A DNA stretch of 64,000 nt, from assembly GCF_000002985.6 (NCBI RefSeq), contig NC_003283.11, positions 2,356,001 through 2,420,000 of the forward strand, read 5' to 3'. The notes beneath the pieces were generated by a model. That model did no database searches. It was not told the origin of the DNA and saw only the letters and a program-made list of their open reading frames with translations. The translations under genes were made by a program, and so were the position numbers. This document shows positions 9,263 through 62,711 of this stretch, piece after piece. Source of the DNA: Caenorhabditis elegans (Eukaryota > Nematoda > Chromadorea > Rhabditida > Rhabditidae). The stretch's first letter is position 1. Each line of letters starts with the position of its first letter.

Positions 9263-9684
9263 CTCAGTAGTTTGTGAGGTGTCAGAAAACGCGCTCTAAT
9301 GATAATGAACCTTTAAGGAGCTCGTGTAGTAATAATTCACTAACCTGTGTAGTTAGTGAGTAGGTTATAATTTTCCACAACATCCTCCATACAAATCACA
9401 GTAAAGTTGAACAGCAGCGTGTTGATCTGAATAAACGTTAAGCAGGCTAATCTGAAATTTCCTACTCTTTAATAATAATTTTTTGGAGTCGAACTTACGT
9501 CAAAATCATAATGAACATCCTCGTTTTGTTCCAGAATACAAAACTCGAAGTTTTCCGAATTTTCGGTAGCCTGCCATCCGATGTTGTTGGGTGAACTTCA
9601 CAGTTTTCGGACACGTTTCTGAAATATATTCATTGGAATTTCACGCAAAAAAGTTTCTCCAAAAATCTGAATATTACCGGTACT

Positions 9685-9875
9685 GAGAGTGTAGATAGTG
9701 GAAGAGACACAGACATACCGAGACCCAAGGGGCGGGGCGCGGGAAGAGACGCTTTGTGTCGATTTACGGAGTTTTCCTAGTTGTCATCATTTCGTAAATC
9801 GACACAAATCGTCTCCCGCCCCTTGGGTCCCGGGATGTCTGTGTCTCTACAACTATCTACAATCTCTGTACCCTG
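9685..9875. repeat. Foldback element with GC-rich arms
   Basis: Arms GGAAGAGACACAGACAT...GACCCAAGGGGCGGGGCGCG and their complement (CGCCCCTTGGGTCCCGGGAT...GTCTGTGTCTC) flank a GTAAATCGACACAAATCGTC centre. A TA lies just outside each apparent end. A relative lies at about 60140-60332. Confidence 0.75.
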
Positions 9876-41356: not shown

Positions 41357-41739
41357 ATGGAACTTTTACAGCTTGTATCTAGATCCTATTGGCCAACTTT
41401 TTATTTCATTTGCCTATGCCTGCATTTTACTATGTACCTGTTGATTTTTTGTATTGGCAACGGCGGCTTTTGTGACGCAAGTTAGGTGAGTTTTTTTTTG
41501 AAAAATATTTTCAGTTAATCTATGAATTTTGTTAGAAACTTTCCTTTTAACAATTAGAAAATTTTTAAACCAAAAAATCAAATGTTCATTAGAAACTCTT
41601 ATGTTGAAAACAAATTTCCACTTTGTTTTTTGCACGCACATATTTGAAAACTATAATAATAGGGTGCATCGTTTGTTTTTTTAATCTCAAAACTTGTCAT
41701 GAAATTGAAAAAAAATCTACTTGACATTTGGGGGTTACT

Positions 41740-42805
41740 TTCTGCCAAACCCTGGCAACTTTCTGTAAAAAAATTTGGAAATGTTCTGCCAAACAGGCAA
41801 TTTTCTACCAAATTTTGACCACTTTCTGCAAAATGTTGGCAACTTTTTGCTACATTTTGGCAATATTCTGCCAATATTTTGGCATTATTCTGCCAAATTA
41901 TGGCAACTTTCTACCGAAATTTGGCAACTTTCTGTAAAACGTTGGCAGTTTTCTTCCAAACTTAGGCAACTTTCTCCGATACTTTGGCAACTTTCAAAGC
42001 CAAATTTTGGCAATTTTCTGCTTAACTTTGGCAATTTTCTGCCAAACTTGGCCAATTTTCTGTGAAACTGGCAACTTTCTACCAAACTTTGGCAACTTTC
42101 TCCGATACTTTGGCAAATTTCAAAGCCAAATTTTGGCAGTTGTGGCAAATTTTTGGCACCTTTCTGTCTGCTAATCTTTGGCAATTTTAAACCAAAAATT
42201 TAGCAATTTTCTGGCAAACTTTGGCAACTTTCTGCCAAACTTGGCTAATTTTCTGCCAAAATTTGACAGAGGTCTGCCAAATTTTGGCAAGTTTCTACTA
42301 AATTTTGGCAAGTTTCTACCAAATTTTGGGCAATTTTCTACCAAACTTTGGCAAGTTTATACTAAACTCTGTCAAGTTTCTCCCATATTTCGGCAAGTTT
42401 CTACTAAATTTTGGCTCCTTTCTGCCAAACTTTGTCAACTTTCTGCCATACTCTGGCAACTTTCTGCTAAACGTTGGCGATTTTTTATCAAATTCTGGCC
42501 TTTTCTGCAAAACTTTGGCAACTTTCTATTAAACTTTGGCAACTTTCTGCCGTACTTTGGCAATTTTCTGCCAAATTTTGGAAACTTTCTACTAAATTTT
42601 GGCAATTTTCTGGAAAATTTTTGGCAACGTTCTACTAATCTTTGGCTACTTTCTCCCAAACTTTGAGAGCTTTCTGCCAAACTCTGACAACTTTTTGCCA
42701 TACTCTGGCAATTTTCTACAAAATTTTGGCAATTTTCTACAAAATTTTGGCAATTTTCTGCCAAACTTCGGAAATTTTCTTCCAAACTTAGGCAACGTTT
42801 TGCCA
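41740..42805. repeat. 1.05 kb tandem repeat in srd J intron 1
   Basis: More than fifty copies of a unit of about 17-20 bp, TTTGGCAACTTTCTGCCAAA and relatives, ending close to the exon 2 acceptor. It opens long reading frames on both strands that are not genes. Confidence 0.9.
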
Positions 42806-43507
42806 AGTGCATTATAAATTTCAGAAATGTCAACAACAAACAATCAATGCCTCTCCTCTGTGATGGATTTTGCAAATTTATTGGCCCATCTTTCTGTTTC
42901 AACTCCTATGTTCTACTCTTGGTAATGTAACGTTTTATCAATAATTCTAAAATTCATTCAAATTTAGGTAATGATTACAGTAACCGGCTTCATCAACCTA
43001 CATGCACTCTTCTACCGTACTATGTGTCTGAAATATTTTGATTCTAGAAAGTCTAATCTGGAAACGATGAAGTTTACGTGGCACTATTTGATTCCAATTT
43101 TAGTTTATGTGAGAAATTTACAAATTTCAAATTTTCTAAAATTTGGCGGAAAATTCAAATTACCTACTATAAATACAAACAATATAAATACAAGTTTCAG
43201 ATCTTAACTTATATCCCTTCTCAAAACCACGCCGAGGTATATAAGGAGACTCTAAGTTTACATCCAACATATCAACTCGAAGTTTACAAAGTTTTTGGAG
43301 GATTTGCAAATTCTCATCACATTTGCATGACAATCAATACATTGGCATGCGCTACAGCGACACTGTACGTGCCAATAATTGGCAGTTACTGGAAGCATGT
43401 TGCTATGAAAATATTGAATTCTACTATTTCATCTAGCATTTCTAGTCAGACCCGAATCATGCTGAAGACATTGATCAAGGTGGGAAATGGAGGAAAAAAT
43501 GTTTAAA

Positions 43508-43970
43508 TATGGAGTAGCGCCAGTGGGGATTTTGTCTAAATACATTTATAATGATCCAAGACAACCGAATATCATAATAAAGCACTCCAAAAAAATTTTC
43601 AAATATTTTTTTTTTAGATTTTCCATAATTTCCGGTCAAAGTTTTGGAAAAGTGCCAAAATTTTGAAAAATATGAGAATATGATTTTAAGAAAATTCTAA
43701 GCAATATCTCAATTTCTCGACCCCTACAATGTTGTAATACAAATAATTAAAACAAAATTACAGTATAAAAATGTAGGAAAAAACTTTTTTTTTTGGTCGA
43801 CTTCCAAAATTATGAGTGGCAAAAACTGAGTAATTGTCACTTTTTGACAGTAAATAAAAAATTTTCAAAAACATTTTTTTTTTTGAAAAATTTTATTATG
43901 ATATTCGGTCATTTTGGCACCATAGACGTAGTTTTTAACACTTTTCCCACTGGCGCTACTCCACTTTTAA
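43508..43970. repeat. Foldback in srd J intron 4
   Basis: GGAGTAGCGCCAGTGGGGAT at the left and its near-complement (TCCCACTGGCGCTACTCCAC) at the right end, with arms of about 200 bp. Only its right half recurs at 52083-52250. Confidence 0.8.
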
Positions 43971-44080
43971 TATAATTTTTGGATTCAGGGTCTAACTTTT
44001 CAAGTTATCTTACCACTTGTCTGCTATGTTCCTGTTACTTTTATGTATTGTTGGAATAAGTATTCTGGTAAGGAAATTCA

Positions 44081-44293
44081 GGTACTTATGGGTTTCGTTC
44101 CCCCCAAAATGTTCATTCAATTATTTAATACTGAATTTTTAATTTTAATCCACACGTGAAAGTTTATTTTAATACTGTTTTCATTTTCAGGCTTAGGAAA
44201 CCATCTTCCTAAGCCTGAGAATGAAAAAAAAGTTCACGTCTCTATTAAAAACTATGGAAAACATACTGGGGGGGAACGAAACCCATAAGTACC
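44081..44293. mobile_element. 213 bp foldback insertion with 8 bp target duplication
   Basis: Termini GGTACTTATGGGTTTCGTTC and complement GAACGAAACCCATAAGTACC, flanked on both sides by GAAATTCA (44073-44080 and 44294-44301). The homologous intron at 52353 has a single uninterrupted GGAAATTCATCAATGACC. An internal GGCTTAGGAAA / TTCCTAAGCC turn forms the hairpin tip. No coding capacity. An 8 bp duplication is typical of hAT-type transposons. Confidence 0.85.
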
Positions 44294-45356
44294 GAAATTC
44301 ATTTAAGACCGAATGTAAATGTTAAACATTTTTTTAAAAAGTTTTTAATGATTTTAAAAATTCTTCCAAAATCAAAAAAAAAAAGAAAAACAGCCGAATT
44401 AAATTTGAATTCCCGCGCAAATGAGTGACCTCATTTTCGAAATTTCCGAGTTGTCTGGCCAAATTCTTCGGGTTTTTCATTATTTTTTCTTCTGTGTGTG
44501 CGATTTAAAACACCGTTTGCCACTTTTTCAGGCACTTTAAAATTTCAAAATTGGCCTAAAAACGACAATTAAAAAAACGACAGAAATGAAAATGCAAGAA
44601 CATCAAAAATGACGTCACTCAAATTTAATTCGGCTGTTTTTTTTTGATTTTTGAAAAAATGAAAAAATCATAAAAAATTTTGGAAATGTTTCAAAAAACA
44701 TTTTACAGTCATATTCGGCTATTAGGGTAAATTTTCTGTCATTTAAAATAAAAATAATTGTTCAAATTTTAAATTTTAACTAATTTCAGGCCATATCTTG
44801 AGCCGCCAAAACTTTTTTGGCAAGTTTTCAATATGCTTCATTGTGAAATTCGGTCTTTTCAGACAATTTCGAGTATAATAATTAAAAAATTGAGCCTACT
44901 CCACTTTTAAATAAAATTTCCAGGCGATCAAATCCTAATATCCCAATACACTCTGGCATTTATGGGTACACTTCCGTGTATTTTCGATCCGCTACTTCAA
45001 ATGTATTTTATATTGCCTTACCGAAAGACGATCCAGAATTTTGTTGCATGTGTTTCATTTAGACCAAATAACGCCCACGCGGTCAGCTCGATTCCACGAC
45101 GTTCTTTTTTGACTCCTCCTTTATAATGTTACACCAAAAATAAGATTAATCAATCCATTTCTCATTACTGTCCGAAGAGAAAAACTCGAAAAAAAAAATG
45201 TTCTAGTTACATCAAATAGAGTTATCGGAAACGGTATTCAGATACCTATACAATACCGGAAATTGGTTAGCACCTCAGACAAAATTTGGCGCATCTGTGA
45301 ATTGGGGTGTCTATCTACACCCGAATCGTTATGTTCATTTTTTTTACAAGCCAATA

Positions 45357-48300
45357 ATGCAACTCAACGATGCGATTTTTCTGAATTCCTCGGTAATTTG
45401 CGCGATTTTTATAAACACTGTCCTAATACTTTTGATACTCAAAAAGTCGCCAGCATCTCTTGGAGCCTATAAGTATCTTATGATTTATATAAACATTTTT
45501 GAGCTAACCTATGCGATTTTGTATTTTGCGGAGAAACCGGTGAGTTTTTTTTAAATTTGAATAAAATAGATTAAATTGAAAATTTGCAAAACTGGAATGC
45601 TATAAAATTTAAAATTTTTGGAAATGGACAGTTTCGCTTTATTGAAAATTCTGACAACCTAAAATTTTGGCAATTGTCAGAATTTTTTGGAGTTTCAGCC
45701 GATCCCGGCAATTACAAAAAATTTCCGAAATTCACCAATTTCAAAGTTTGCCAGTTTCTGACATTTCCGGCAACTGTGTAAATTTGCTGGATTTCAGAAC
45801 TTTTGCCAATCGGCAGTTGTCGGATTTTTAAAATTTTTAGGCAATTTTTTCAATTGCCAAAAATTAAAAAATCCGGCAATCGGCAATTTTGCCGGATTTC
45901 GGAAACTCTAGATTTTTCTACAATTACCCAAAATTTGAATTTCCGTACATTGAAAATTTTGCCGAAATTTCAATTTTAAATTTCTGGCATTCTTGGCAAT
46001 TACCAAAAGTATATATAAATTCCCACATTTTTTGGTTTTCATAAATTCCGACAATTATTGAAAATTAAATATTCCGGCAATCGTCAATTTTGAAAAATTT
46101 TGATTTTAAAATCTTACAAATATTTTTGGCAATTGTCAGTTTTTTGGCAACCGGCAATATCTCAATTTCAGATTTTCACGTATTTTTGACGCCGGATTTC
46201 AGTAAATGTCATGCAATTTCAGAAATGTTCGGCAAACGGTTACAGCCAGATTTCAGCAGTTCAGCAAATACTGAAATTTTAAATTTCCGGCAGTCGGCAA
46301 TTAATTTTTAACATTTTTTGGCAACTAGCAATATCCGTCAAAAAAAAGGAAAAAATTCTAGTAGTCTGTAAATTTTTGGCACTTTTGGAAAATTAGAAAA
46401 ACTCTGACAATCGGCAATGTTTTTCGTAAATACAGAAAATGAATAAATTCGACAATTTTCATTTTGCCTAATAAAAAAAATACAAAGTATGATTTTTCTA
46501 GATTATGCTTACAAAAGAGTCTGCATTTTTAATAATCATGAACTGGAGAGAATCTATTTTTCCGAAATATGCAGCGTGCACTCTAAATCGTAAGTTTTCA
46601 AAAATAATTTTTTTGCCCGCCAATTTTAACTATCACAGTGCTTTTTATTGGCTTCTTTGGTATGTCAGTTGCTATTCTGGCCCTTCATTTTATTTATCGA
46701 TACCTCAGTATCACAAAGTAAGCTCAAATATTTGGAGCATTAAAGTCTACCAATGTTTCAGGAGCAATCTATTGAAAACATTCGATTCGTGGAAAATTGT
46801 GCCATGGTTTATGATACCATTGCTGAACGGAATAACATTTATGTGTACAGCCGGATTTTTAATGCGGGCCGACGAGCAAACTGATCGATTCATAAAGTGA
46901 GAGCATCGAAAAGTTTCAAAGTAGTAAAAAGAAGTGAAAATTATATAAGAGGAAATTTTTTTAGAAGTTTTGATTTTGAAAAAAATTTGAAAATTGTGTA
47001 AAAAAAATTTTCAAAGAAAATTTTTTTTTTTTGAACGAATAAAAAAAAACTCCCAAAAAAGCTTTCAGAATATACAAATGAAATTTTTTTTAAATTATAT
47101 TCCACAGCTTCAAGGTGGAGTAGCGTCTAAATATGAGTTAAACTCCCCAACACTGTCAAAAAAAATTTTCGCTATTTTTTTAAACTTTTATCTTTTTTGG
47201 TCCTTTTTTGCCCTTTTTTTTGTGTTTTTTTTTCGATTTCAGAATGCCCCATGTTTTCCGATTTTTTGTCGCTTTTTTTCTTTTTTTTTGCAGAATTTTT
47301 TGAAACTTCTTGGAATTTTTTTTCTCTTTTTTCTTCCTAAGCCTGAGCCTAAGCCTAAGCCTCAGCCCAATCCTAACTAAAATTATTACCGTAAAAATAT
47401 ACCTGTTAAAAAATTTATAGAATTTACATAAATTTTCTTAAAATTTTTTTGTTTTACAATTTCCAATTTTTCAATTTTCCCTGAAATTATTTCAAAGAAA
47501 ATTAATCTCAAAAACTAAAATTTTCAGTGAAAACTATCCACCACTTGTCAAAAACCTCTCAACTATTAATGATCTCTACTATGTGGGGCCATTGTTCTGG
47601 CCCAAATACGCCAACTCAATGACCGAGCATTTTTTCAGTTGGAAGGCTGCAAGGTCATGTCTGATTGCAATGGGCTTAATTGTGCGTTTTAGATTAGGCT
47701 TAAGCTCTAAACAAATCTTTGCTCCAGGGATTTTCCAACTCAATTATGGTGTTCTTCGGTCTAAAAGCTTATTTGGTAATGAAAAACTTGATGTCACAGT
47801 CAACTTCTTCTGACAAGTTCAAAAGCATTCAGCAGCAATTACTACTTGCTCTAATTCTGCAAACGTCGATTCCAGTCCTCTTGATGCATATTCCTGCAAC
47901 CGCGATTTACCTGACAATATTTATGAGAAAGTCGAACGAGATTATAGGAGAAACCATTGGGTTGACAATTGCAATGTATCCTGCGCTGAATCCTATTCCA
48001 ACGATTTTAATTGTCAAAAACTACCGGACTGTGTTGATTAGTGAGTTTTTTTTTAAATTTTCAATTCAAACAGTTTTGATTTTAAATCGCAAATTTTGCG
48101 GAAAAATAGGAGATTGTTAAAAATTATTCCTATGGTGCCAAAATGTTCGAATATCTTAGAAAATTTTTAACATGTTATAGTCAAAAAGTGGCAATTACTG
48201 AGTTTTTGCCACTTTTCGAAAAATCTATAGCACAGTCGCATGTTCAAATCTCTATCGGCAAATTTTCGGTTTGCCGATTTGCCGGAATAATCGTTTGCCG

Positions 48301-48989
48301 CTCACCCATTATTTGAACATTAGTCGGCCAGAGATAAGCAATTGCCGTTCGGCAATTTTTTTTTCGACAAATTCGGCAAATCGGCAAATTGTCAATTTTC
48401 ATTCCCGGCACTTTGCCGATTTGCCGGAAATTTCTAATTCCGGCAATTTGCCGGTTTGCCGATTTGCCGGATATTTTCATTTCTGGCAATTTGCCGAAAC
48501 TGTTTAGAGTGATTTTTTATACGAAGACTGAGACACTTAAAGCTGCGCTTTTTCCAATTTTTTCCAGGTTTCTTTAGATATTTTCATAGAATTTGCTTGC
48601 TTTTCAAAATAGATGTTGGAACATTCATAGGATGCGTACAATTTTGCCGATTAATATTGAATTTCGAAAATTTCCAAAAAAAAGAGCAACACCAAAATTT
48701 GACATAAATTTCCGGCAAATTTGACAAATCGGCAATTGGCCGGTTTGCCGATTTGCCGGTATATTCAATTCCGGCAATTTGCCAATTTGTCGGAAAAATT
48801 TGTTTGCAAGCCCTTACTGGAGCCACTCCATCTTTAAAGATTTTTAACCTGTCATCGTCCAAATTAACATCATTTTTTTCAGATATACTGGCTTATGCCA
48901 AACGTCGAGTATTCCGACAAACTGCGGTGACTCCACTTGTGCTGGCGGATGTAACAACAATCGCTATGCAAAATTTGGCCCCGAACTAG
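45357..48989 (+). CDS. str-type seven-helix chemoreceptor K (complete)
   Basis: Complete 352 aa receptor of the Str class. Exons: 45357-45539, 46502-46589, 46639-46717, 46762-46896, 47528-47681, 47728-48040, 48883-48989; 1059 nt. Start MQLNDAIFLNSSV leads straight into TM1. Then LKKSPASLGAYKYLMIYINI (first loop and TM2, very Str-like), LTKESAFLIIMNW, FGMSVAILALHFIYRYLSIT (TM3 and its YRYL end), KIVPWFMIPLLNGITFMC (TM4), FKSIQQQLLLALILQTSIP (TM6), and TIAMYPALNPIPTILIVKNY (TM7). A 36-residue tail encoded by the last exon is basic at its start. The open frame continues upstream of the ATG, so a longer N-terminus is not excluded. All seven exon lengths equal those of gene L. Introns hold a telomere-like tract and an R2 copy. 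Ligand unknown. Confidence 0.92.
47335..47380. repeat. Short telomere-like tract in str K intron 4
   Basis: CCTAAGCCTGAGCCTAAGCC and a short continuation, after a strongly T-rich stretch. Confidence 0.75.
48240..48805 (+). repeat. R2 repeat in str K last intron
   Basis: Arms 48240-48510 and 48690-48805 around a core with AGATGTTGGAACATTCATAG. It is matched by the R2 copy in the same intron of gene L, so it predates the duplication. Confidence 0.85.
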
Positions 48990-49011
48990 CATTTGCCCAT
49001 ATTTTTGGTTT

Positions 49012-49500
49012 TAAAGGTGGTGTAGTCTAATTTTTCAAGTTGCTTTATTAGACTCAAAATTTTTTGAAAAAGGAAATTTCATATTTAAAACTTCTCAAAA
49101 AAAAAGTTATGGCGGCTTAAAAATGTCCTGAAATTAGTTAAAGTTTGAAATTTGACCAACTTGTCTATGTTTTTGAAATTGTTTTACTAAATCTTTTTGT
49201 CCATTGATTTTAAAATACCTACATAGGTCAAGTTTAAAATGCGAGATAAAATTTGTATACTCAAAAAAAAAAAATTGTATACTCAAAATTTGACGGTGAT
49301 TTCAAAAAAAAATGTTTTCAGCGGCTGCGACATTCACAAGTCAGTCAAATTTCAAATTTTAACTAATTTTATTTAGGCCATTTTGTGAGCCGTCATAACT
49401 TTTTTTTGAGAAGTTTTCGATAAATTTAATTATGAAATTCGGTATTTTCAGACAATTTTGGGTCTAATAAGGCTATTAAAAATTGGACTACACCACCTGT
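49012..49500. repeat. Foldback family Q, first duplicate
   Basis: GGTGGTGTAGTCTAATTTTT at the left, AATTGGACTACACCACC at the right, about 200 bp arms. The second duplicate at 57515 keeps mainly the equivalent left and centre. Confidence 0.8.
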
Positions 49501-49739
49501 AAAGGAGGACTAACGGTTTTAAATATTTCGTACGTATTTACCCAAAATGTGCTGAAAGACACAAATTTTGAAATCAAACTTCCGAGCGATATAGAAATTT
49601 GTTTATGGTGATTTCAAAAGAAAATACCTATTTTTTTTTGATATTTTTGGTTCAATGAACTTCTCATCTCCAATGTTCTGACTTTTTCAACAAAACAAAT
49701 CTGTTCAATTAATAGCTTCTTTGCCTAATGAGAAGCATA

Positions 49740-49979
49740 CCTTATACCTCATACCTGATGGTTTATTGGATCAACTTGTAATGTTTGGATTTTGCAAAAA
49801 CTCCATAAATACACCATTAGAGTGCGACCGCTTCTTTTGTGCAATTAACAGCTGTTACTATTTTTTTTGGGTCATGCATGAGCAAACTGTTGGCTGTTTA
49901 AATGTTATCTTTTCCCTGATTCTTCGCATTCGAATTCTCAGTTCCTACTATTTTTTAAACTATAATTGTAACAAACGAT
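49740..49979 (+). pseudogene. srbc chemoreceptor fragment
   Basis: Open stretch LIPDGLLDQLVMFGFCKNSI and FFCAINSCYYFFWVMHEQTV, nearly identical to the middle of the intact srbc gene at 58154-60011. The upstream flank (49655-49725) matches 58020-58090. The roughly 450 bp encoding the start codon to TM4 is deleted, and the second exon is absent: sequence after the SSYY position runs into the 3' flank of gene M. A relic of the segmental duplication. Confidence 0.85.
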
Positions 49980-50012
49980 GAAACATTTTTTTTTGTATAT
50001 ATGTAATAATGA

Positions 50013-50018
50013 TTTATT
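50013..50018 (-). terminator. Poly(A) signal of receptor M
   Basis: AATAAA on the minus strand 89 nt past the stop codon of gene M. Confidence 0.5.
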
Positions 50019-50106
50019 TGCTTGTTCTCCATTCCACGTTTTAAATGAAAGCTCAAGTATCTTTCTGAACAAAAAATTCTGTGAAAAAAGTTCAACTGAA
50101 AAAAGT

Positions 50107-51314
50107 TCAACTCCGCAAACCTGCAATGATCTTCCGATATTCCGTCACAATCATCATGAATGAAATGCTATCAAATGGAGGGTAAAGTCCAATTAGAGAA
50201 TACAACCATCCCGTCTGCCAACTGAACTTCAAATGAAAATCTGATCCAATTACGGGACAGAGTAAGACTGGGACAGCTGGTACTATCAAAAATACCGTCG
50301 GGCCGATGCTTTGAAAAACTAACGCCTTGAAAAATTGACGTTGAAGCTTTCGGTTTTTGGATGAGAACTTCAAGAGCTGCTGTTTCATGTTGAAGTGCAT
50401 TTTCAAGCCATAGTAAAAAATGACAGCGTAATGAACTGATACAATTGAAACTGCACCGACAAAATAATAAACGCTGCTCCATCTCACTGTATTATCCGGA
50501 TTGTACGGTAGAGCTAAGAACCGTGGAACTTCTGTTATCACTAGTCCGTAGTTGATTAGTATTTCCTCTCTATAAAATATATTAATGTTGTTCGATGCAA
50601 ATGAAAAATGACTACAATAAAATTCTCAATCGCTTTGGTCATGTTCGATAGAGCACATGACTAGGGCTGTGCAATCGGACGAATTCGGACGAATTCGGAC
50701 GTCCGGCGTCCGGTTTTTCGGACGTCCGAAAAAACCGGACGTCCGGTTGCACAGCCCTACACATGACCAAAGCGATTGAGAATCTACATACCACCGTGCC
50801 CTGCTTCCTTGAAATACACTTACCTGACATAGGAATCTGCCGCATTGTCTGGTAAACAGAATATATAAAATGACCCCGAATACAGTGCTCCTGGAAGGAT
50901 AGGATACATCATCAGCATTACCCCACCGACTCCGTCAAATGACTTTTTCAGGTTTGTAGCCATCAGGCAAGAATGTCGATATACAAACTGATTGGTGATA
51001 AATGCAAGTATAGTTGCATACAGGCCAGCCCATACCATTATAAGAATCTCTGGTATTTCTCTAGATTTCATCCAAAAATTAAAACTAAAGTACATGAGGT
51101 AGTTATTGAAGTTATGAGCGAACGGCCTGGCCAATACTTCAATTATCGAAAAAATGATTCCCAGCGATGCAAAGATTATGACCATTTTTTTATACGTTCC
51201 GACGACATTTTCGACAAAGAACACGGTCAAATAAATGATGAAGAAGTTTGCTAGAAAACTTGCACAAAAGCCGATTTTGGAGAAAATGTTAGCCAAAACC
51301 AATGACGCTACCAT
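50107..51314 (-). CDS. str/srj-like seven-helix chemoreceptor M (complete)
   Basis: Complete 317 aa receptor in two exons, 50824-51314 and 50107-50569 (954 nt), the only receptor on the minus strand. Landmarks: FSKIGFCASFLANFFIIYLT (TM1), NVVGTYKKMVIIFASLGIIF (loop and TM2), ITNQFVYRHSCLM (end of TM3), FSSKNRKLQRQFFKALVFQS (loop before TM6), and LIGLYPPFDSISFMMIVTEY followed by RK (TM7). It belongs to the Str superfamily; whether str, srj or another class I cannot settle. The single intron contains a strong hairpin. It has far fewer introns than K and L, and a decayed copy of its 3' end lies at 60345-60525. It lies within the duplicated region, between the srbc relic and the second duplicate. 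Confidence 0.88.
50621..50792. repeat. Strong hairpin in the intron of receptor M
   Basis: ATTCTCAATCGCTTTGGTCA with its exact complement TGACCAAAGCGATTGAGAAT, then AGGGCTGTGCAATCGGAC with GTCCGGTTGCACAGCCCT. The tip is built of GGACGTCCGG-type units and a repeated ACGAATTCGG. Confidence 0.9.
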
Positions 51315-52082
51315 TTTTGATATATGTGTTCACGTTAAACAGTAATATAGTTTTTTGGGGTATGTATTATATACGTGTTGCTACATACGAAAAACAGGAA
51401 ATTACAACAGAGATGCGTATTTTCCTCGAGAAAACAGTGTCTGTTCTTATTCGTTTATATTACTTTTCCTGTTATGCATTTGGTAAGTATCGTACTCGTG
51501 ATTAATATTATTACTCACATATAAAAAACGTAAATACAAATACGTCTGTCTATTTTGTAATTTATAGTCTGAATTTTTAGAAAAAAAATGAGCATCTCTC
51601 TTTCCAAGACATACTGGGTGTGGCAATCGACTGTTCTGCAATTGTCAAATATGATCGAGGTACTGTCGCATTACTGTAGAAATACTGTAGGGTAACTGTA
51701 ATTGAAAAAAAAAAGATGTTGTGTCTTTTTACAGAATATGAAGGGATAAGAGAGAAGATTGGGTACTGGTTATATGAGGATGTTGTAAGGGTACTGTAGT
51801 ACGCATTGTGGCGACCCCTGTTTGAAGAAACTTCTAGATAACTTGAGACAATTATGGAAAGACTGGACTATTGAAAAAAAAACATTGAGAACTTTGGCTG
51901 GAAAGTTCTGAAATGTTCTAAAAATCTAGATTTTTTAAAAATTTGAAAAAATCTATGAAAGATCTGAATATTTTTAAAAAGAGAGAAATTACTGCAAACT
52001 TCTAGAATTTTTGAAATAAAAAAGTTTTTAGGAATCTTAAGACGTTTTAGCAAAGTTCCAAAATTTCTGAAAAATATTTTTT
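51315..52082. other. Gap between receptor M and the second duplicate
   Basis: 768 bp, AT-rich. It holds a cluster of TACTGTAG/ACTGTAG words near 51660-51810, common in nematode repeats. It should include the promoter of M. I see no gene. Confidence 0.6.
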
Positions 52083-53029
52083 TTTGGTCGACTTCCAAAA
52101 TTATGAGTGGCAAAAAATAATTAATTGTCATTTTTTGACAATAAATAAAAAATTTTCAAACATTTTTTTGAATTGTTTTATTATGATATTCGGTCATTTT
52201 GGCACCATATTAGTCGTTTTTAACACTTTCCCCACTGGCGCTACTCCACCTTTAATATAATTTTTGGATTCAGGGCCTAACTTTTCAAGTTATCTTACCA
52301 CTTGTCTGCTATGTTCCTGTTACATTTATGTATTGTTGGAATAAGTATTCCGGTAAGGAAATTCATCAATGACCAAATGTAATTGTTTAAAAAAAATTCA
52401 AAATTAAATAATTTTTTTAAAAATATTTCCCAAATCAAAGACACGACCGAATTTAATTTGAATTCCCGCGCAAATGAGTGACGTCATTTTCGATATTTTC
52501 GCGGCCAAATTCTTTGGGTTTTCATTATTTTTTCTTCTATATGCGATTTAAAACACCGTTTGCCAATTTTTCAGGCACTTTAAAATTTCAAAATTGGCCT
52601 AAAAACGACAATTAAAAAAATAACGACAGAACTGAAAATGCAAAAATATCGAAAATGACGTCACTCAAATTTAATTCGGCTGTTTTTTTGATTTTTGAAA
52701 AATGAAAAAATCATAAAAAATTTAGAAAATTTTTCAAAATTTTTTTACAGTCATATTCGGCCATTAGGGTCTATTTTCTGTCATTTAAAACAAACAAATT
52801 GAGCCTACTCCACCTTTAAATAAATTTTCCAGGCGACCAAATCCTTATATCACAATACACTCTGGCATTTATGGGTACACTTCCGTGTATTTTCGATCCG
52901 CTACTTCAAATGTATTTTATACTGCCTTACCGAAAGACGGTTCAGAAATTTATTGCACGTTCTCCATTTAAACCAAATAACGCCCACGCTGTCAGCTCGA
53001 TTCCTCGACGTTCTTTTTTGACCCCCTGA
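52083..53029 (+). pseudogene. srd 3' fragment (duplicate of the end of srd J)
   Basis: Contains only the last two exons: 52274-52352 (PLVCYVPVTFMYCWNKYSG) and 52833-53029 (QYTLAFMGTLPCIFDPLLQM, FILPYRKTVQKF, AVSSIPRRSFLTP). They keep the same lengths or phases as in J. No exons 1-4 precede it: the duplication starts at about 52083 inside the foldback of intron 4. It lacks the 213 bp insertion present in J. A dead remnant. Confidence 0.88.
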
Positions 53030-53250
53030 AATTATTTAACTGCGAAAAAAGAAACACTTTGCCTACCTGTTTTGCCGTACATATTTCTCAGAAAAACAAT
53101 CGAAAAAAAATGTTCTAGATACATCAAAAAAGTTAACGGTATTTATATGTACCGGAAATTGGTTAGCACCTCTGGCAAAATTTGGCAGATCACATCTGCC
53201 AAGACACCCACATACCCGAATCATTGTGTTCCTTTTATACAAGCCATAAA

Positions 53251-56200
53251 ATGCAGCTCAACGATGCAATATTTTTGAACGCTTCTGTAATTTGTGCGAT
53301 TTTTATAAATTTTGTCCTGATACTTTTGATACTCAAAAAATCTCCAGCATCTCTTGGAGCCTATAAGTACCTCATGATGTATATCAACATTTTCGAGCTG
53401 ACCTATGCGATTTTGTATTTTGCGGAGAAACCGGTGAGTTTTTTTAAAAATAGAATAAAATAGATTAAATTGAAAATTTGCAAAACTGGAATGCGATAAA
53501 ATTTAAAATTTTTTGGAAATAGGCAGTTTCGTTTTATTGAAAACTCTGACACCCTGAAATTTTGGCAATTGCCAGATTTTTCGGAGTTGCAGCCGATTCC
53601 GGCAATTACAAAAAAACTTCCAATATTCGCCAATTTCAAATTTTGCCAGTTTCTGACATTTCCGGCAACCGTGTAAATTTGCTGGGTTTCAGACTTTTTG
53701 CCAATCGGCAGTTGTCGGATTTTAAAAATTCTGGAGCTTTTGGCAATTACCAAAAATTGAAAAATTCGGCAATCGGCAATTTTGCCAGATTTTGGAAACT
53801 CTAGAAATTTCTGCAATTACCGAAAATGTGAATTTTTATACATTGTTAGTATGTGCGTTTTTCCAATTTCAAATTTCTGGTATTTTTTGGCAATTAGGAA
53901 AATAATAAATTTCCACAATTTCCGATTTTCAGAAATTCCGGCAATTATTGAAAATTAAATTTTCCGGCAATCGACAATTTTGCCGGATTTTGGAAACTCT
54001 ATACTTTTTACAATTACCGTAAATATGAATTTTTATACATTGTTAATTTTGACGAATTTCCAATTTTAAATTCTTTATATTTTGGGTAATTACCAAAAGT
54101 ACATATAAATTCCCACATTTTTTGGTTTTCAGAAGTTCCAAGTACTGCAATTTTGGCAATTTTTGACATTTTTGGCAACTAGCAATATCCGCCATTCGGA
54201 ATGCTTTAAATTTCACGCAGCCAGTAAATTTTTGGCACTTTTGGAAAATTCGAAATACTCTGATAATTGGCAATTTTTTTCGTAAATACAGAAAATGAAT
54301 AAATTCGACAATTTTCATTTTGGCTAATAAAAGAATGATACGTTTTTTTTTAAGATTATGCTCACAAAAGAGTCTGCATTTTTAATAATAATGAACTGGA
54401 GAGCATCAATATTTCCGAAATATGTTGCTTGCACTCTAAATCGTAAGTTTTCAAAAATAATTTTTTTAGCCCGCCAATTTTAACTCTTACAGTGCTTTTC
54501 ATTGGCTTCTTCGGTATGTCAGTTGCTATTCTGGCCCTTCATTTCATTTATCGATACCTCAGTATCACAAAGTAAGCTCAAATATTCGGAGCATTTAAGT
54601 GTACCAATTTTTCAGGAGCAATCTACTGAAAACATTCGATTCGTCGAAAATTGTGCCGTGGTTTATGATACCATTGCTGAACGGAATAACGTTTATGTGT
54701 ACAGCGGGATTTTTAATGCGAGCCGACGAGCAAACTGATAGATTTATAAAGTAAGAGCTTCTACTTCATAGCGTGGTTCTAAAAGTTTCAAAACAGTTTT
54801 GATGCACAAAAACTGTAAAAATTACAACAAAAAAACAAATATGAATTTTCAATGCTAATTGAGAATTTTCATCTTTTAAAAAGAAATCTGGAAATTGTGT
54901 GAAATTTTTTTTTTTAATTTAAGCAATTTGTGAATGAATAAAAATTGTCCAAAAGGCTTTCAGAATGTACATACTAAAGTATTAAAAGAAGGACTTTTAT
55001 GGCTTAGAGGAACTGTAAAAAAATAACTGTTAAAAATTTGTAGAATTTTTATAAATTTTCATAAAATATTTGTTTTCCAATTTTGCAACACAATTTTTTT
55101 TCGAGGTTTTTGGAAACACTGGTTCTGACATATTTCTGAAAAAAGTTCGTAAAAACGTTAAATTACATTTTCATAGGTCAGTATTCCCCGGAAATTTTGA
55201 AAAAAAAACCTATAATTAAACAAAACAGTTTTTACATTTGTGCTATTTTTCGGTAAATTTTTCACAAAAATTTTGAGGCCCGAAGAGTTACTTTTTTACT
55301 AACTTAGATATTGCTGAATACAAAAGTTTTTTTGAAAAAATTGTGTGGTAATAACGTAGCATTCGGAATGAAAAAGCCCAAGCGAGCGAGCCTAAGCCTA
55401 ATTCTAACCTCATAAAAAGTTACAAGAAGGTTTTTCCTTGCGCTTGGAGCGCAAAAGAAAATAAAAAGGGCTATTTAGAGTTAGGAACAAACCCAATTTG
55501 AATAAAACATTGGAAATCCCAATCCAGCAAGCCTAAGGGCCCGAAAAACATACTAGGATGCCCAACTGGAATAAAATATAGGAAATCCTTATGACACACC
55601 GGCGGTATGGCGCGGCTTAAGCCTAAATAGCCACTTTTATCAAAATACATTTGAGCGAGGCGGTTGTAAACTATTCGTTCATTAACAAAAAAAAAAATTT
55701 TAAGAAGCAAAAAAAGAGACTATATTTAAATTTAAAAATAAATATCATATGTTATCACACCTTACAATTAGAATATCACGCCTTAATTTAGATCATCGGA
55801 ATTAAATATCATCAGAGCTAACGCTCGCCACTGACGCCAAGCCGTAACCTGAGCCTTAGAATAAGCTTAAGCCTAAGCCTAAGCCTAGTCCAACGCCTAG
55901 GCCTAGGCATAAGCCTAAGTCTAAGCTGAAGCCTAAGCCTAAGCCTATGCCTAACTAAAATTATAACCGTAAAAAATACCTGTTAAAAAATTTATGAATT
56001 TATATAAATTTTCTAAAAATTTTTTTTTCGTTTTACAATATTCAATTTTTCGATGTTCCCTGAAATATCGAATTTTCAGTGAAAACTATCCACCGCTTGT
56101 CAAAAACCTCTCAACTATCAATGATCTCTACTATGTGGGCCCATTGTTCTGGCCCAAGTACGCCAACTCAACAACCGACCACTTTTTCAGTTGGAAGGCT

Positions 56201-57492
56201 GCAAGGTTATGCCTGATTGCGATGGGCTTAATTGTGGGTTCAAGATTAGGCTTAAGCTCTAAACAAATCTTTGCTCCAGGGATTTTCCACTTCAATAATG
56301 GTGTTCTTCGGTCTGAAAGCATATTTGGTAATGAAAAACTTGATGTCACAGTCAACTTCTTGTGACAAGTTCAAAAGCATTCAGCAGCAATTACTACTTG
56401 CTCTAATTCTGCAAACTTCGATTCCAGTCCTCTTGATGCATATTTCTGCAACCGCGATTTACCTGACAATATTTTTGGGAAATTCTAACGAGATTATAGG
56501 AGAAACCATTGGATTGACAATTGCATTGTATCCCGCTCTGAATCCAATTCCAACAATTTTGATCGTCAAAAATTATCGGACTGTGTTGATCAGTGAGTTA
56601 AAAAATTTTTTTTTTTTTTAATTATCCACTTTTGCCAATTTTTGAAAAATCTATAGCACTGTCGCATGTTCAAATCTTTATTGGCAATTTGTCGGTCTGC
56701 CGATTTGCCGGAAAATTTCAAATCCGGTAATTTGCCGATTTGCCGGGAAATTTCGATTCCGGCAACTTGCCGATTTGCCGGAAAATTTAAATTCCGGCAA
56801 TTTGCCGATTTGCCGGAAAATTTTAATTCCGGCAATTCGCCGATTTGCCGGAAAAATCGTTTGCCGCCCACACATGATTTGAACATTAGTGCTTGGAACA
56901 TTATTCGGACAGGGATTAGCGGCAATTGCCGTTCGGCAATTTTTTTTTCGACAAATTCGGCAAATTGCCAATTTTCATTTCCGGCAATTTACCGATTTGC
57001 CGGAACTGTTTAGAGTGATTTTTTATACGACGGAAGCACTTAAAACAGCGCATTTTCCCATTTTTTCCAGGTTTCTTTAGATATTTTCATATAGTTTGCT
57101 TACTTTTCAAAATAGATGTAGGAACATTCATAGGATGCGTTCAATTTTGCCGAGATGAATTGCAATTCTGAAATTTCCAAAAAAGGTGCAAAACCACTAT
57201 TTGCCGAAAATTTTCGGCAATTGCCGTGTTTCCGGCAAATTCAGCAAAATCGTCAATTTGCCGATTTGCCGATTTGCCGGAAATGTTAAATTCCGGCAAC
57301 TTGCCGATTTGCCGATTTGCCGGAAATGCTACTCCACCCTTAAAGATTTTTAACCTGTCATCCCAAATTAACGCCGGTTTTTCAGATATACTGGCTTATG
57401 TCAAACGTCGAGTATTCCGACAAACTGCGGTGACTCCACTTGTGTTGGCGGATGTAACAACAATCGCTATGCAAAATTTGGCCCCGAACTAG
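53251..57492 (+). CDS. str-type seven-helix chemoreceptor L (complete)
   Basis: Complete 352 aa duplicate of K. Exons: 53251-53433, 54355-54442, 54493-54571, 54616-54750, 56080-56233, 56280-56592, 57386-57492; each equals K's exon in length. Differences are scattered substitutions, for example NASVICAIFINFVL against NSSVICAIFINTVL, WRASIFPKYVACT against WRESIFPKYAACT, and an FLGNSNEII loop against FMRKSNEII. No frameshift or stop separates them, so both seem under constraint or duplicated recently. Intron 4 is 1.3 kb against 0.6 kb in K and holds extra unique sequence and a telomere-like tract. The last intron has R2 sequence at the same position as in K. Ligand unknown. Confidence 0.92.
54751..56079. 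repeat. Enlarged intron 4 of str L
   Basis: AT-rich, with a telomere-like tract at 55845-55950 (GCCTAAGCCTAAGCCTA type). The 700 bp of 55100-55800 has no counterpart in K. I find no coding exon in it. Confidence 0.7.
56675..57330 (+). repeat. R2 repeat in str L last intron
   Basis: Two arm regions (56675-57010 and 57190-57330) with the conserved core between, at the same position as in gene K. Confidence 0.85.
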
Positions 57493-57514
57493 CATTTTCC
57501 CATATTTTTGTATT

Positions 57515-57960
57515 TGAAGGTGGTGTAGTCTAACTTTTTATTGCGTTATTAGACTCAAAATTGTCTGAAAACACCGAAGTTCATAATGAAACTTCTTGAA
57601 AATTTTTCAAAAAAAAGTTATGACGGCTCAAAAAATGAGCTAAAATTAGTTACAAATTCAAATTTGACATGTCAGCGGGTGGAAACTAATTTTTTTGAAA
57701 TCACCGTCTAATTTTAGGGTTTTCAACTCTACTTAGATATTCTAAAGTTGATGGACAAAGCTTTTTTTTAAATGTTGATTTAAAAAAAAACAAAAAAAAA
57801 TTCCAGCCGTTGCGACCTTGACAAGTCGGCCAAATTTCAAATTTTAACTAATTTTTGGCCATTTTTTTAACCCGTCATAACTATTTTTTGAAAAGTTTTC
57901 AAGAAGTTTCATTATGAAATTCGGTGTTTTCAGACAATTTTGGGTCTAATAAGGTAATTT
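57515..57960. repeat. Foldback family Q, second duplicate
   Basis: Same element as 49012-49500, with GGTGGTGTAGTCTAACTTTT at its left; the right end is degraded after TTGGGTCTAATAAGG. Confidence 0.75.
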
Positions 57961-58153
57961 TAAAAAAATTCGGTTTTGGATATTTTGTAGTAAAGACCCA
58001 AAATTTTGAGACTTTTGGTTCAATGAACTTCCCATCTCCAATGTTCTGACTTTTTCAACAAAACAAATCTGTTCAATTAGTAGCTTCTTTGCCTAACGAG
58101 ACGTATAAAACTATTCTGACCAACTTCCTCCTTCAGATTATCTAAGCTCAAAA

Positions 58154-60011
58154 ATGTTGCTCATCGTTCTTCTGACCAGTATTTTAGCGATTTTATTTTC
58201 ATTCCTGGCGCTCTACCTGAACTCTTTCATACTGTTCTCCATCTTCTATTGCAAACGAGCACACGTGAATCGAAGTATGATACTAATTTATTTCAAATTC
58301 GGACTTGATGCAATTATAATGTTTTTTATGTTTTTTGTCGAGATATATAATCTAAGCACAAGTTACCGTGTTAATTTGATCACAAAAAATATAGCGTTTC
58401 TTCTGGTTTGGCCATCTTCCTCAACTGCAAGCATTAGATCAACTCTGGCACTATTGATATCTATTTCAAGAGTTATTGCCGCGTGCTTCCCAATTTTCTT
58501 CCGCAGGTATCAAGAAAAAATCATCAAATTTGAAATAATACTCATACTCATACCTGATGGTTTATTGGATCAACTTGTAATGATTGGATTTTGCAAAAAC
58601 TCTATAAATACCCCGTTAGAATGCGACCGCTTCTTTTGTGCCATAAACAGCTGTTACTATTTTTATTGGGTCTTGCATGAGCAAACTGTTGGCTGTTTAA
58701 ATGTTGTATTTTCCCTGATTCTTTGCATTCGAATTCTCAGTTCCCACTATTCTTCAAAAACGCAAACAAATAAGAAACTGTCTATAGTAAGTTTTGAGTT
58801 TTTACACCAGAGGGTGGGCGGCAAACGATTTTTCCGGCAAATCGGCATATCGGCAAATTGCCGGAATTGAAAATTTCCGACAAGTTGACAAATCGGCAAT
58901 TCGCCGATATGCCGAATTTGCAGATTTGCCGAATTTACAGGAAATAACGGCAATTGCCGAATTTGCAGGAAATAACGGCAATTGCCGAAAATTGAAATTT
59001 CCGGCAAATCGGTAAATCGGCAAATTGCCGGAATTAAAATTTTCCGGCAATTCGACAAACCGAAAATTTGCCTATTTGCCGAATTCGTCCGGAAAACGGC
59101 AATCGTCGAAAATTTTCGGCAAGTTGTGGTTTTTCCGGCATAGTGCCGGAATTGAAATTTTCGGCAAATTGGCAAACCGTTTTTCGAGTTTTCCCAAAAA
59201 GCGGCAAATTGTGTTTTTTTCCGACAAATCGCCGAAATGAAAAATTTCGGCACACCGGCAAGTCGGCAAATTGGCAAACTGCCGATTTGCCCAATTTGCC
59301 GGAAAGTTTCGGCAAAACTGTACGCATCCAGTAAATGTTTCTTTAGTGGCAGATTTATGCGAACTCCCAGCGAACCCAGCGAACTGCAAATTGGCAATTT
59401 GCCGAACATTAAAATTTCCGGCAAATCGGCAAACCGGCAAATTGTCGAAATGGAAAATTTTCGGCAAATCGTGAAACCGGCAAACTGCCGGAATTGAAAT
59501 TTTTCTGGCACAAACAGACAATTTGCCGAATTTTAATTTTTTTTTTCTAATTTTCCGGCAAATCGGCTAACCGGCGATTTTCCAATTTTTCTAGAAAAGC
59601 GGCAACTGCCGAAAATGTTAAGCAAATTGTGTTTTTTTCGGCAACTTGGCAATTTGCCGAAATTGAACACTTCCGGCAAATTGACAAACCAGCAATTTTC
59701 CGACTTGCCGAATCTGCCGACTAAAAAATTGCTGGTCTACACTTCGATAGAGTACACATTTCCTAATTTCAAGACTTCAGGCTACCCGCATTGCACTTCT
59801 TAATGCGTTCATAGTTTTCTTCTTCAATATCATTCCGTCATACGCGTTTGCCAATTTCACAAGTGCCAATATTGAGGTGGCTGGACCAATGGCAACAGTT
59901 ACCAAGACACTTGGATTTGTAATTGAGGGATTAATAACTCGTCGTGTATTGTTTCGGAAGCCTCGCGTCTCACCCGGTGTTGCTTCACCAAATGTAGTAG
60001 TTACTTGTTGA
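58154..60011 (+). CDS. srbc-type seven-helix chemoreceptor N (complete)
   Basis: Complete 287 aa receptor of the Srbc class, one of the stand-alone nematode chemoreceptor families. Two exons, 58154-58786 and 59781-60011 (864 nt), phase 0 join. Landmarks: YLNSFILFSIFYCKRAHVN (TM1 and loop), IYFKFGLDAIIMFFMFF (TM2), STLALLISISRVIAACFPI (TM3 with an ER-like SR end), FCKNSINTPLECDRFFCAIN and the conserved SCYYFYWVLHEQT region (TM4-5), ATRIALLNAFIVFFFNIIPS (TM6), and GPMATVTKTLGFVIEGLITR (TM7). The roughly 1 kb intron is almost entirely R2. The fragment at 49740 is its decayed duplicate. Confidence 0.9.
58810..59745. repeat. R2 repeat filling the srbc N intron
   Basis: Longest continuous arm-type R2 sequence in the window (GGCAAATCGGCAAATTGCCG and variants), 930 bp of a 994 bp intron. 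It reads open in several frames on both strands but has no codon structure. Confidence 0.9.
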
Positions 60012-60139
60012 AATGAAAAAAATTTAATTTTTTTTTACGTGGAGTATTTTAGTTGCAATACATATTGTCAAGCCTGTTTAATAGCTGCCTACTGGGGATG
60101 CAGTACTAATAGAGAATATACGGTATTGCCTGTCCAGAG

Positions 60140-60332
60140 AGTGTAGTCAGCTAAAGAGACATAGACAGCCGGGGACCCAAGAGGCGGGGCGCGGGATGAG
60201 ACGATTTGTGTAGATTTACGAAATGATGACAACGGGGAAAACTCTGTAAATCGACACAAATCATCTCTTCCCGCGCCCCGCCCCTTGGGTCCCGGATGTC
60301 TGTGTCTCTTCAACTTTCTATACTCTCTGGAC
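60140..60332. repeat. Foldback element, relative of 9685-9875
   Basis: CTGTCCAGAGAGTGTAG...GACCCAAGAGGCGGGGCGCG pairs with CGCGCCCCGCCCCTTGGGTC...ACTCTCTGGACAG; the centre again carries TAAATCGACACAAATC. Confidence 0.8.
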
Positions 60333-60344
60333 AGTCATAATAAG

Positions 60345-60525
60345 ACTGGAAAAATCTCAACTCGGCAAACCTTTGATGATTTTCCAAAAAAAAAATTAAA
60401 TAGAGGGTAAAGCCCAATTACAGAATATAACCACTGAACTTCAAATGAAAATATGATCCAATTACGGGGTCGAGTAAAACTGGAACAGCCGGTAGTATTA
60501 AACCTACCGTCGGTCCAATGCAAAC
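60345..60525 (-). pseudogene. Relic of receptor M (3' end)
   Basis: Minus-strand sequence matches the last exon of gene M: LILPAVPVLLDPVIGSYFHL and WLYSVIGLYP are recognisable, and the 3' flank (CTCGGCAAACCTTTGATGAT) matches CTCCGCAAACCTGCAATGAT. The stretch between HLKFS and WLYS is shortened, and upstream it is cut off by R2 sequence at about 60525. It marks the far end of the second duplicate. Confidence 0.8.
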
Positions 60526-62711
60526 GATTTTTCCGGCAAACCGGCAAATCGGCAAATTTTGCCGGAATCGAATTTTCAGGCAAATTGGCAAATTGGCAAA
60601 TTGCCGGAATTGAAGTTTCAGGCAAAATGGCAAATCGAAAAACCGGCAATTTATGGATTTGCCAAAAAACGGCAACAGCCGAAAATTTTAAGCAAATTGT
60701 GGTTTTTCCGCCAAATCAGCAAATTGTCGAAACCGCAATTTGCCAATCTGTCGAATTTGTCGGAAAAACGGCAATAGCCGAAAATTTTCGGCAAATTGTA
60801 GTTTTGCACATTTTTGTTTGGAAATTTCAGAATTTCAATTTTAATCGGCAAAATTGTACGCATCCTATAAATGTTCCTACATCTATTTTAAAAAGCAAGA
60901 AAATTCTATTAAAATATCAAAAAAAAACGGGGGAAAAAATTTCAAAAAGGCACATTTTTAAGTGTTTCCGTCTCATAAAAAAACTCTCTAAACACTTTCG
61001 GCAAATTGATATCCGGCAAATCGGCAATGTGCCAAAAATGAAATTTTCCGGCAAAACGGCAAACCGGCAAAATTGAATTAAAATTATTTTTGGGAATTTC
61101 AGAATTTCAGTTTTAAGTGTTTCGGTGTTATAAAAATTTCCTCTGAACTCTTACGGCAAATTGATGTTCGGAAAACGGCAAACCGGCAAGTTGCCGGAAT
61201 TGAAATTTTCCGGCAAATCGGCAAACTGGCCCTCCATTACCATAATATATATGTCATACATTATGTGTTCGCCCCCGAATTTATTTCCAGACGAGCTGCT
61301 CTGAACTTTAAAATGTTGGAATTTGGCACGTACATAAGATGATGAGACTTGTTAGCTTGTGAGTGTACGTTTTTTTCTGAATATTTTTAAAAGGTGGTGT
61401 GGTCTAATTTTTCAAATAGCTTTATTATACTTAAAATTGTCTGAAAACACCGAATTTCATAATGAAACTTTTTGAAACTTCTAAAAAAAGTTATGACGAC
61501 TCAAAAAAAATGGCCTAAAATTAGTTAAAATTTGAAATTCGACTTTTCGGAGGCTGGAAACTAACTTTTTTGAAATTGCCGTCAAATTTTGGGTATATCA
61601 GTTTTTATAAATTAGACTACACGGCCTCGTAGCTTTTTTATCAAATGATCAAACAAGAATATGTTTCACAATCAAATTCTAAATAATTAATGCGCAGTTT
61701 GTCATATAAGCAGCCTACGCAAGCCCGGAGATTTTTGGTCTTTCCAATAAAATTTGGGGTGTCTAAAAGTTCCTGGTCATAGTTTGTGATTTTTCTCGTT
61801 TCACATAATTTTTTGGATATGTTTTGGAATTCTTGTTTTCAGATTTGTTTTTTTCCTTTTTTTGTCACTGGAGTTTTCACAAAAAAATTTGCCAATAAAA
61901 TTTCAAAATAACTACAAAAGTAAGGATTCTTCAATTAGAAAAAACCCATTACTCAATAATTTTGATCATTTTTTTCATTTTTTTTTTATATCTGAAAAGT
62001 AGGCTCCCATGCAGGCGCCAAGACGATGAGGCAGGTTGAAGACCGGTATCAGGCCCTGAAACCGCGCCTGCCTCCCATGGAACCCTGCTGAAAAATGACA
62101 GAAAAGTAGATTAGGGGCCATGTCGTAGCTTCTTGATCACTTTGTAACTTTTTCTCCAGATTCTGCACCTTTTCTTCAAATTCTTCAAGATCACCTGTCT
62201 CTGGAGATATTCAGAAATTCAATTTTTGCTCCATAACTTTCAGAGTAAACTAATTTATTGTGCTCTAGAATCAGTGATTTGAGATTTACGCCGAAATTTT
62301 TTTTTGCGAAAAATTGAGTTACACTTTAATCCTTTTTATGGAGTTTTTGTGATATTTATTTCTGACACACTGCATAATATATATTTCCTATCCTCGACAT
62401 AGAACACAGTAGTTTCACTGTGTTCTGCCTAATTAACCTAACCTAATTATAGTCATACTTTTGGTATTTACTCTACATAAGTAGTAGGAAGCTGAAATGG
62501 CAAACAAAATGTATAACATTATTTGATTGACTTGAAAATATCTTATTTTGGTATGCCGTAAAAATTCCAAAAATTTTTTAGCTTCAGAATCTTTTTTTCA
62601 GTATTCTTATATTGTAGGAAATGTTTTAAAACGTACATTGGTGAAATGGTTTAGTGTTAGCACATGAAAACGAAATTTCCAGAAAAAGGCTTATATCTCG
62701 GGCAATATTGC

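Follow-up and report, generated by a model that had tools for sequence, protein, structure and literature searches.

We examined a 64,000-nucleotide stretch of Caenorhabditis elegans N2 chromosome V (positions 2,356,001–2,420,000; hereafter the window, whose own numbering is used below unless chromosomal positions are named), in which two neighbouring groups of chemoreceptor genes (putative receptors for smell or taste), here called blocks A and B, are the products of one real segmental duplication. Both blocks contain, in the same order, the 3′ end of an srd gene, a str gene (K in A, L in B), a foldback repeat (Q), srbc sequence and, inverted, sequence of a further str gene, M. The str gene is open in both copies, srbc is complete only in B, where it is gene N, and M is complete only in A. 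We consider it very likely that this arrangement is best explained by one head-to-tail duplication of about 8.3 kb, followed by differential decay of the two copies and by later recopying of the region within a 108-kb duplication.

The homology between the blocks is collinear and is not confined to genes. Plus-strand matches keep a near-constant offset of about 7.9–8.8 kb, with E-values from 0 to 9e-40, and cover the A segments 43,779–44,080, 44,294–44,760, 44,884–46,907, 47,336–48,047, 48,473–49,482, 49,636–49,739 and 49,748–49,959. The resulting diagonal passes through introns and 5′ flank as well as exons, and the K and L regions align across their introns. A first-pass annotation, made from the letters of this DNA, had proposed such a duplication between 43.8–50.4 kb and 52.1–60.5 kb, and had named the lack of a diagonal outside the coding exons as the result that would speak against it; what we find is the opposite, with Kimura two-parameter (K2P) distances of 0.04–0.17 in 11 of 12 noncoding segments. 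These were aligned separately, together with four coding segments (srd exon 3, the last srd exon, the srbc fragment and the M fragment; 16 in all), and the srd–str intergenic segment, with a K2P of 0.43, is much more diverged than the other noncoding ones.

Silent divergence (synonymous substitutions per site, dS) is similar across the genes of the unit, as a single event predicts: 0.22–0.29 for str, and 0.183 for both the srbc fragment and the srd 3′ exons, M having been left out because of its indels. In the genome, the stretch 44,924–46,000, which takes in the first str exon and some of the intron after it, matches only A, B and their duplicates in the second 108-kb copy, among the 40 of 723 candidates that were scored. 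Under a simple tandem model the unit of A would continue to about 52,067, giving it a length of 8,290 bases. Beyond the left end of block A, the short match at 43,641–43,673 was barely above random pairs and was not used; of 500 pairs drawn, those less than 9 kb apart were excluded, and 10 of the remaining 360 were as good.

The two str genes have the seven equal exon lengths reported in the first pass (183, 88, 79, 135, 154, 313 and 107 nt), with GT–AG introns throughout, and near full-length matches to the Str profile (PF10326) were obtained for K (289 bits), L (281 bits) and also M (298 bits). The K and L proteins differ at 17 of 352 residues. Outside the two loci and their second copies, other matches in the genome reach at most 68% identity, over a part of the sequence (115 of 637 candidates scored); within this set K and L appear to be each other's closest relatives and, as no closer match was found elsewhere, the pair was very probably born in the A/B duplication. 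The comparison of K with L that the first-pass annotation had recommended gives 0.023 replacement substitutions per site (dN) and a dS of 0.29 by the Nei–Gojobori method (NG86), with three other estimators placing dS at 0.22–0.23. There are 57.5 synonymous changes over 240 sites against 18.5 replacements over 816 sites (Fisher's exact test, 6e-25), and the pair as a whole is under purifying selection. Gene conversion between K and L was considered and rejected, the longest identical coding run of 54 nt being unremarkable (a fraction of 0.77 of 5,000 permutations reach 54 nt). Intron 4 of L (54751–56079) measures 1,329 nt against 631 nt in K, and its extra part has GCCTAA-type repeats.

For srbc, the contrast between a fragment in A and an intact gene in B was described correctly in the first pass. 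N matches the Srbc profile (PF10316) at 264 bits over profile positions 1–272 of 273, that is, near full length. Block A has 8 bases where B has 439 (58108–58546, start codon included), and the last srbc exon is also missing from A. Judged from this comparison, srbc is lost in A, where it was broken by deletion.

The earlier description of M, intact in A and fragmentary in B, likewise stands. Its designation as str/srj-like stands for str and fails for srj: the Srj profile (PF10319) scores 102 bits, below the 298 bits for Str, which rules out M as an srj gene. In B, the M remnant is joined directly to a repeat whose end lacks the GTGGGCG-type terminal sequence that is kept in all four other copies of the same repeat end found in the window. 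Because the remnant abuts a repeat truncated at its end, we read the junction as a deletion running from M into the repeat, which likely removed the 5′ part of M after the duplication. A breakpoint at the birth of the duplication is a possible cause of the truncation, given that the search to the right of B brought up nothing convincing of A 50,310–52,067.

Protein and DNA searches for M 5′ remains to the right of B, carried to about 110 kb beyond the window, yielded no convincing remnant. They returned second-copy duplicates, the known remnant, and weak protein hits no stronger than those to other str genes or those expected by chance; their identity did not exceed 57% (over 14 residues) and was 23–37% for those with E < 0.001. 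DNA outside the second copy gave a single match, of 37 bp near 85,291 (E-value 0.002), which was not taken as an M remnant. Within the M intron in A, nested inverted repeats with GGGCTGTGC ends occupy 50622–50783 and resemble a small transposon.

The srd gene has a different history in each block. The left edge of block B, near 52,069, is sharp and corresponds to about 43,778 in A, inside an srd intron, and the A–B comparison found no match in B to the earlier A srd exons beyond that edge. The missing srd 5′ part in B would most simply be a duplication breakpoint and not a loss, since with a sharp edge within the intron nothing need have been lost from srd in B. The first-pass annotation had the srd end whole only in A; the end in B does stop two residues early, but it is open, and it is exon 1 of the A gene that looks defective. 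That exon has 129 nt, against 194 nt (38485–38678) in the upstream srd paralog; the 65-nt difference causes a frameshift, and a stop codon follows after 42 codons. The hand-spliced product of the upstream paralog covers positions 2–292 of the 292-position Srd profile, and the downstream exons of the A gene are assigned to Srd by Pfam. We infer that the A srd gene is a pseudogene, defective at its 5′ exon, for which an alternative first exon is possible; with the A gene frameshifted, no whole srd would survive from the A/B unit.

Table 1. Coordinates of the duplicated blocks, their genes and their repeats, in window positions.
Feature	Position	Strand	Description
Duplicated block A	43778..50309	+	Collinear matches to B; left edge; homologous extent
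Duplicated block B	52069..60521	+	Collinear matches to A; left edge
srd gene of A	41357..45126	+	Exon 1 41357-41485; last two exons 43989-44067 and 44924-45126 within block A
srd 3′ remnant in B	52274..53029	+	Last two exons only, 52274-52352 and 52833-53029; open frame
K, str gene	45357..48989	+	Seven exons; open frame of 352 codons; Pfam PF10326
L, str gene	53251..57492	+	Seven exons; open frame of 352 codons; Pfam PF10326
Foldback repeat Q in A	49009..49498	.	Plus- and minus-strand matches to B
Foldback repeat Q in B	57517..57966	.	Same place relative to the str gene as in A
srbc remnant in A	49636..49959	+	104 bp of 5′ flank, 8 bases, 212 bp of mid-coding sequence
N, srbc gene in B	58154..60011	+	Two exons, 58154-58786 and 59781-60011; 287 amino acids
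M, str gene in A	50107..51314	-	Two exons, 51314-50824 and 50569-50107; 317 amino acids
M remnant in B	60345..60521	-	Part of exon 2 and 3′ end, with internal indels; 5′ part absent
Repeat immediately adjoining the M remnant in B	60520..61230	.	End without the GTGGGCG-type terminal sequence
Dispersed inverted repeat, A only	44074..44306	.	B has the surrounding sequence without the repeat

The history that we favour would begin with a unit made up of the last two srd exons, a complete str gene, the foldback Q, a complete srbc gene and the inverted str gene M. Q lies at the same place in A and B and therefore probably predates the duplication. As the left breakpoint is placed within the srd intron, B would never have had a whole srd. 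The copies would then have diverged by point mutation, separate repeat insertions (for example, 44,074–44,306 in A) and deletions. Block A would have lost srbc through internal and 3′ deletions, and block B the 5′ part of M, most likely through one deletion from M exon 2 into the neighbouring repeat, while both str copies would have stayed open, the pair taken together being under purifying selection. Long afterwards, the whole region was recopied in laboratory N2 stocks within the 108-kb duplication.

Several points weigh against this history. A simple tandem duplication leads one to expect A 50,310–52,067 at the right end of B, and the end of the unit is not preserved beyond the second copy: local alignments as far as 70,000 did not stand out from random windows (29, 10 and 60 of 60 were as good in the three stretches), and as no homology stands above background there, an extra later deletion must be assumed. 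Divergence is uneven among the A–B segments, with K2P ranging from 0.04 to 0.43. Further, the dN/dS of the srbc remnant is only moderately raised (0.27, with 8 replacement changes), so the date of the srbc loss is loosely fixed, and the pairwise dN/dS of K and L is an average over both branches that does not in itself show present-day constraint on L. Finally, we infer ancestry, the tandem mechanism, the order of events and losses, and the placing of the M loss after and not at the duplication, from the two copies A and B.

The foremost alternative is a copy-and-paste origin of B, in which an internal part of A reaching from the srd intron to M exon 2 would have been inserted near 52,068; srd and M would then have been truncated at birth and only srbc truly lost. 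It deserves to be kept in mind as an unlikely but real contender: B is cut off at either end within a gene that runs on in A, and the lack of any convincing trace of A 50,310–52,067 beyond B is in its favour. However, the right junction lies inside a repeat without its terminal sequence, and that terminus was not found at 51,315–52,420 around the left junction (one substitution allowed), which points to a deletion and not to a clean insertion site. The head-to-tail order of the blocks, moreover, fits a simple tandem duplication.

We find it distinctly harder to credit a full reciprocal loss, in which two complete copies of four receptors would each have lost different members. The survival of srbc only in B and of M only in A is what such a process would leave, but the srd sequence of B stops at the block edge within an intron, with no earlier A srd exons matched beyond it, and the A srd gene is itself frameshifted. 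The reciprocal loss put forward in the first pass stands for srbc in A, is probable for M in B, and does not apply to srd. Its corollary, that each ancestral receptor was kept about once, fits two of the four genes and fails as a general statement: srbc is found in B only and M in A only, srd is whole in neither block, and str is open in both. Gene-level paralogy alone, that is, separate duplications that happen to share their order, might be entertained because str and srbc genes are abundant on chromosome V, but it is refuted by the noncoding diagonal and has next to nothing left to recommend it, introns, flanks and Q being common to A and B, dS being similar across genes, and no closer relatives of K having been found elsewhere among the candidates scored.

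The whole window lies inside the upstream copy of a published duplication, described as two 108-kb duplicons at this position of chromosome V (Vergara et al. 2009; PMC2728738). In chromosomal positions, 2,346,632–2,378,678 matches 2,454,592–2,486,638 at 99.97%, and 2,378,391–2,421,721 matches onward to 2,530,000, the end of the stretch compared, at 99.84%. Base by base over 64,000 bases, the window and the near-identical second copy, about 108 kb away, differ by two indels only, 319 bases absent at window 22,647 and 1 extra base at window 25,150, neither of which falls in A or B. Both agree with differences published for the first duplicon, namely a deletion of 319 bp and, at 2,381,150 (window 25,150), the insertion of one base (PMC2728738); the published differences checked singly were those within the window. 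The 108-kb duplication is carried by 29 of 76 N2 stocks and is absent from CB4856 (PMC2728738).

Because the window and the second copy are identical over A and B, the reference contains the A–B pair twice. The 108-kb event is recent and its copies are near identical, whereas the A/B duplication is far older and is nested in each of them. The reference thus holds two nested duplications of very different age, which should affect read mapping and genotyping here, and a short-read comparison of wild isolates would need care, as the whole window is one copy of a near-identical 108-kb duplication.

Six of the 17 differences between K and L could be polarised by eye against eight paralog loci, some of which have stops in the aligned frame. 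Five are derived in L (residues 78, 127, 195, 241 and 269) and one in K (residue 21); six polarisable sites are too few for a test of asymmetry, and the other 11 are ambiguous and were set aside. L calls for some caution as a surviving copy. It departs at residues that are invariant among the paralog loci with data: all 7 have W at residue 127, and all 8 have S at 241 and P at 269. Furthermore, the acceptor of L exon 2 (54347–54354) reads TTTTTAAG, which is unusual, and that of K reads TTTTCTAG; AAG splice acceptors are rare in C. elegans. One could speculate from these features that the str pair is splitting now, with L open and shifting or losing function and K keeping the ancestral role, and that the dosage of K, L, M and N varies among laboratories. 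A shift or loss of function in L would rest on the replacements at 127, 241 and 269 together with the TTTTTAAG acceptor, and the difference in dosage would follow from the doubling of the unit in part of the N2 stocks. We hold this combined reading to be doubtful.

Seen more broadly, the A/B duplication is ordinary chemoreceptor birth-and-death and is nothing new in kind. Chemoreceptor families in Caenorhabditis are described as clustered, with many members on chromosome V, a substantial share of them defective, and losses that offset duplication (Thomas and Robertson 2008; PMC2576165). Set against the families treated there, A/B is the same in kind and represents a single worked-out case whose unit holds four receptor genes. 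It offers a readable example of how one local duplication alters both the order and the content of a receptor cluster, through truncation at breakpoints and later deletion in uneven proportions, and it carries a caution: copy-by-copy counts of 'loss' must first exclude genes that were cut at a breakpoint. Katju and colleagues have reportedly described young gene duplicates of C. elegans whose structure is partial or chimeric. As in those duplicates, a breakpoint here falls inside a gene, srd; A/B differs from them in being a multi-gene unit and in its age, which exceeds that of most duplicates in such surveys.

In a limited literature search, including parts of PMC2728738, no published account of the A/B duplication was noticed. 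Table 2 of that paper, which is restricted to tandem pairs above 90% identity, does not list A/B, and the curated str names of its Table 1 (str-257, str-119 and str-120) could not, without coordinates, be matched to K, L or M, so that none of these names was assigned (PMC2728738).

Between the srbc gene and the M remnant of B, an inverted repeat at 60127–60337 shows a 79% opposite-strand self-match and has a relative at 9,672–9,871.

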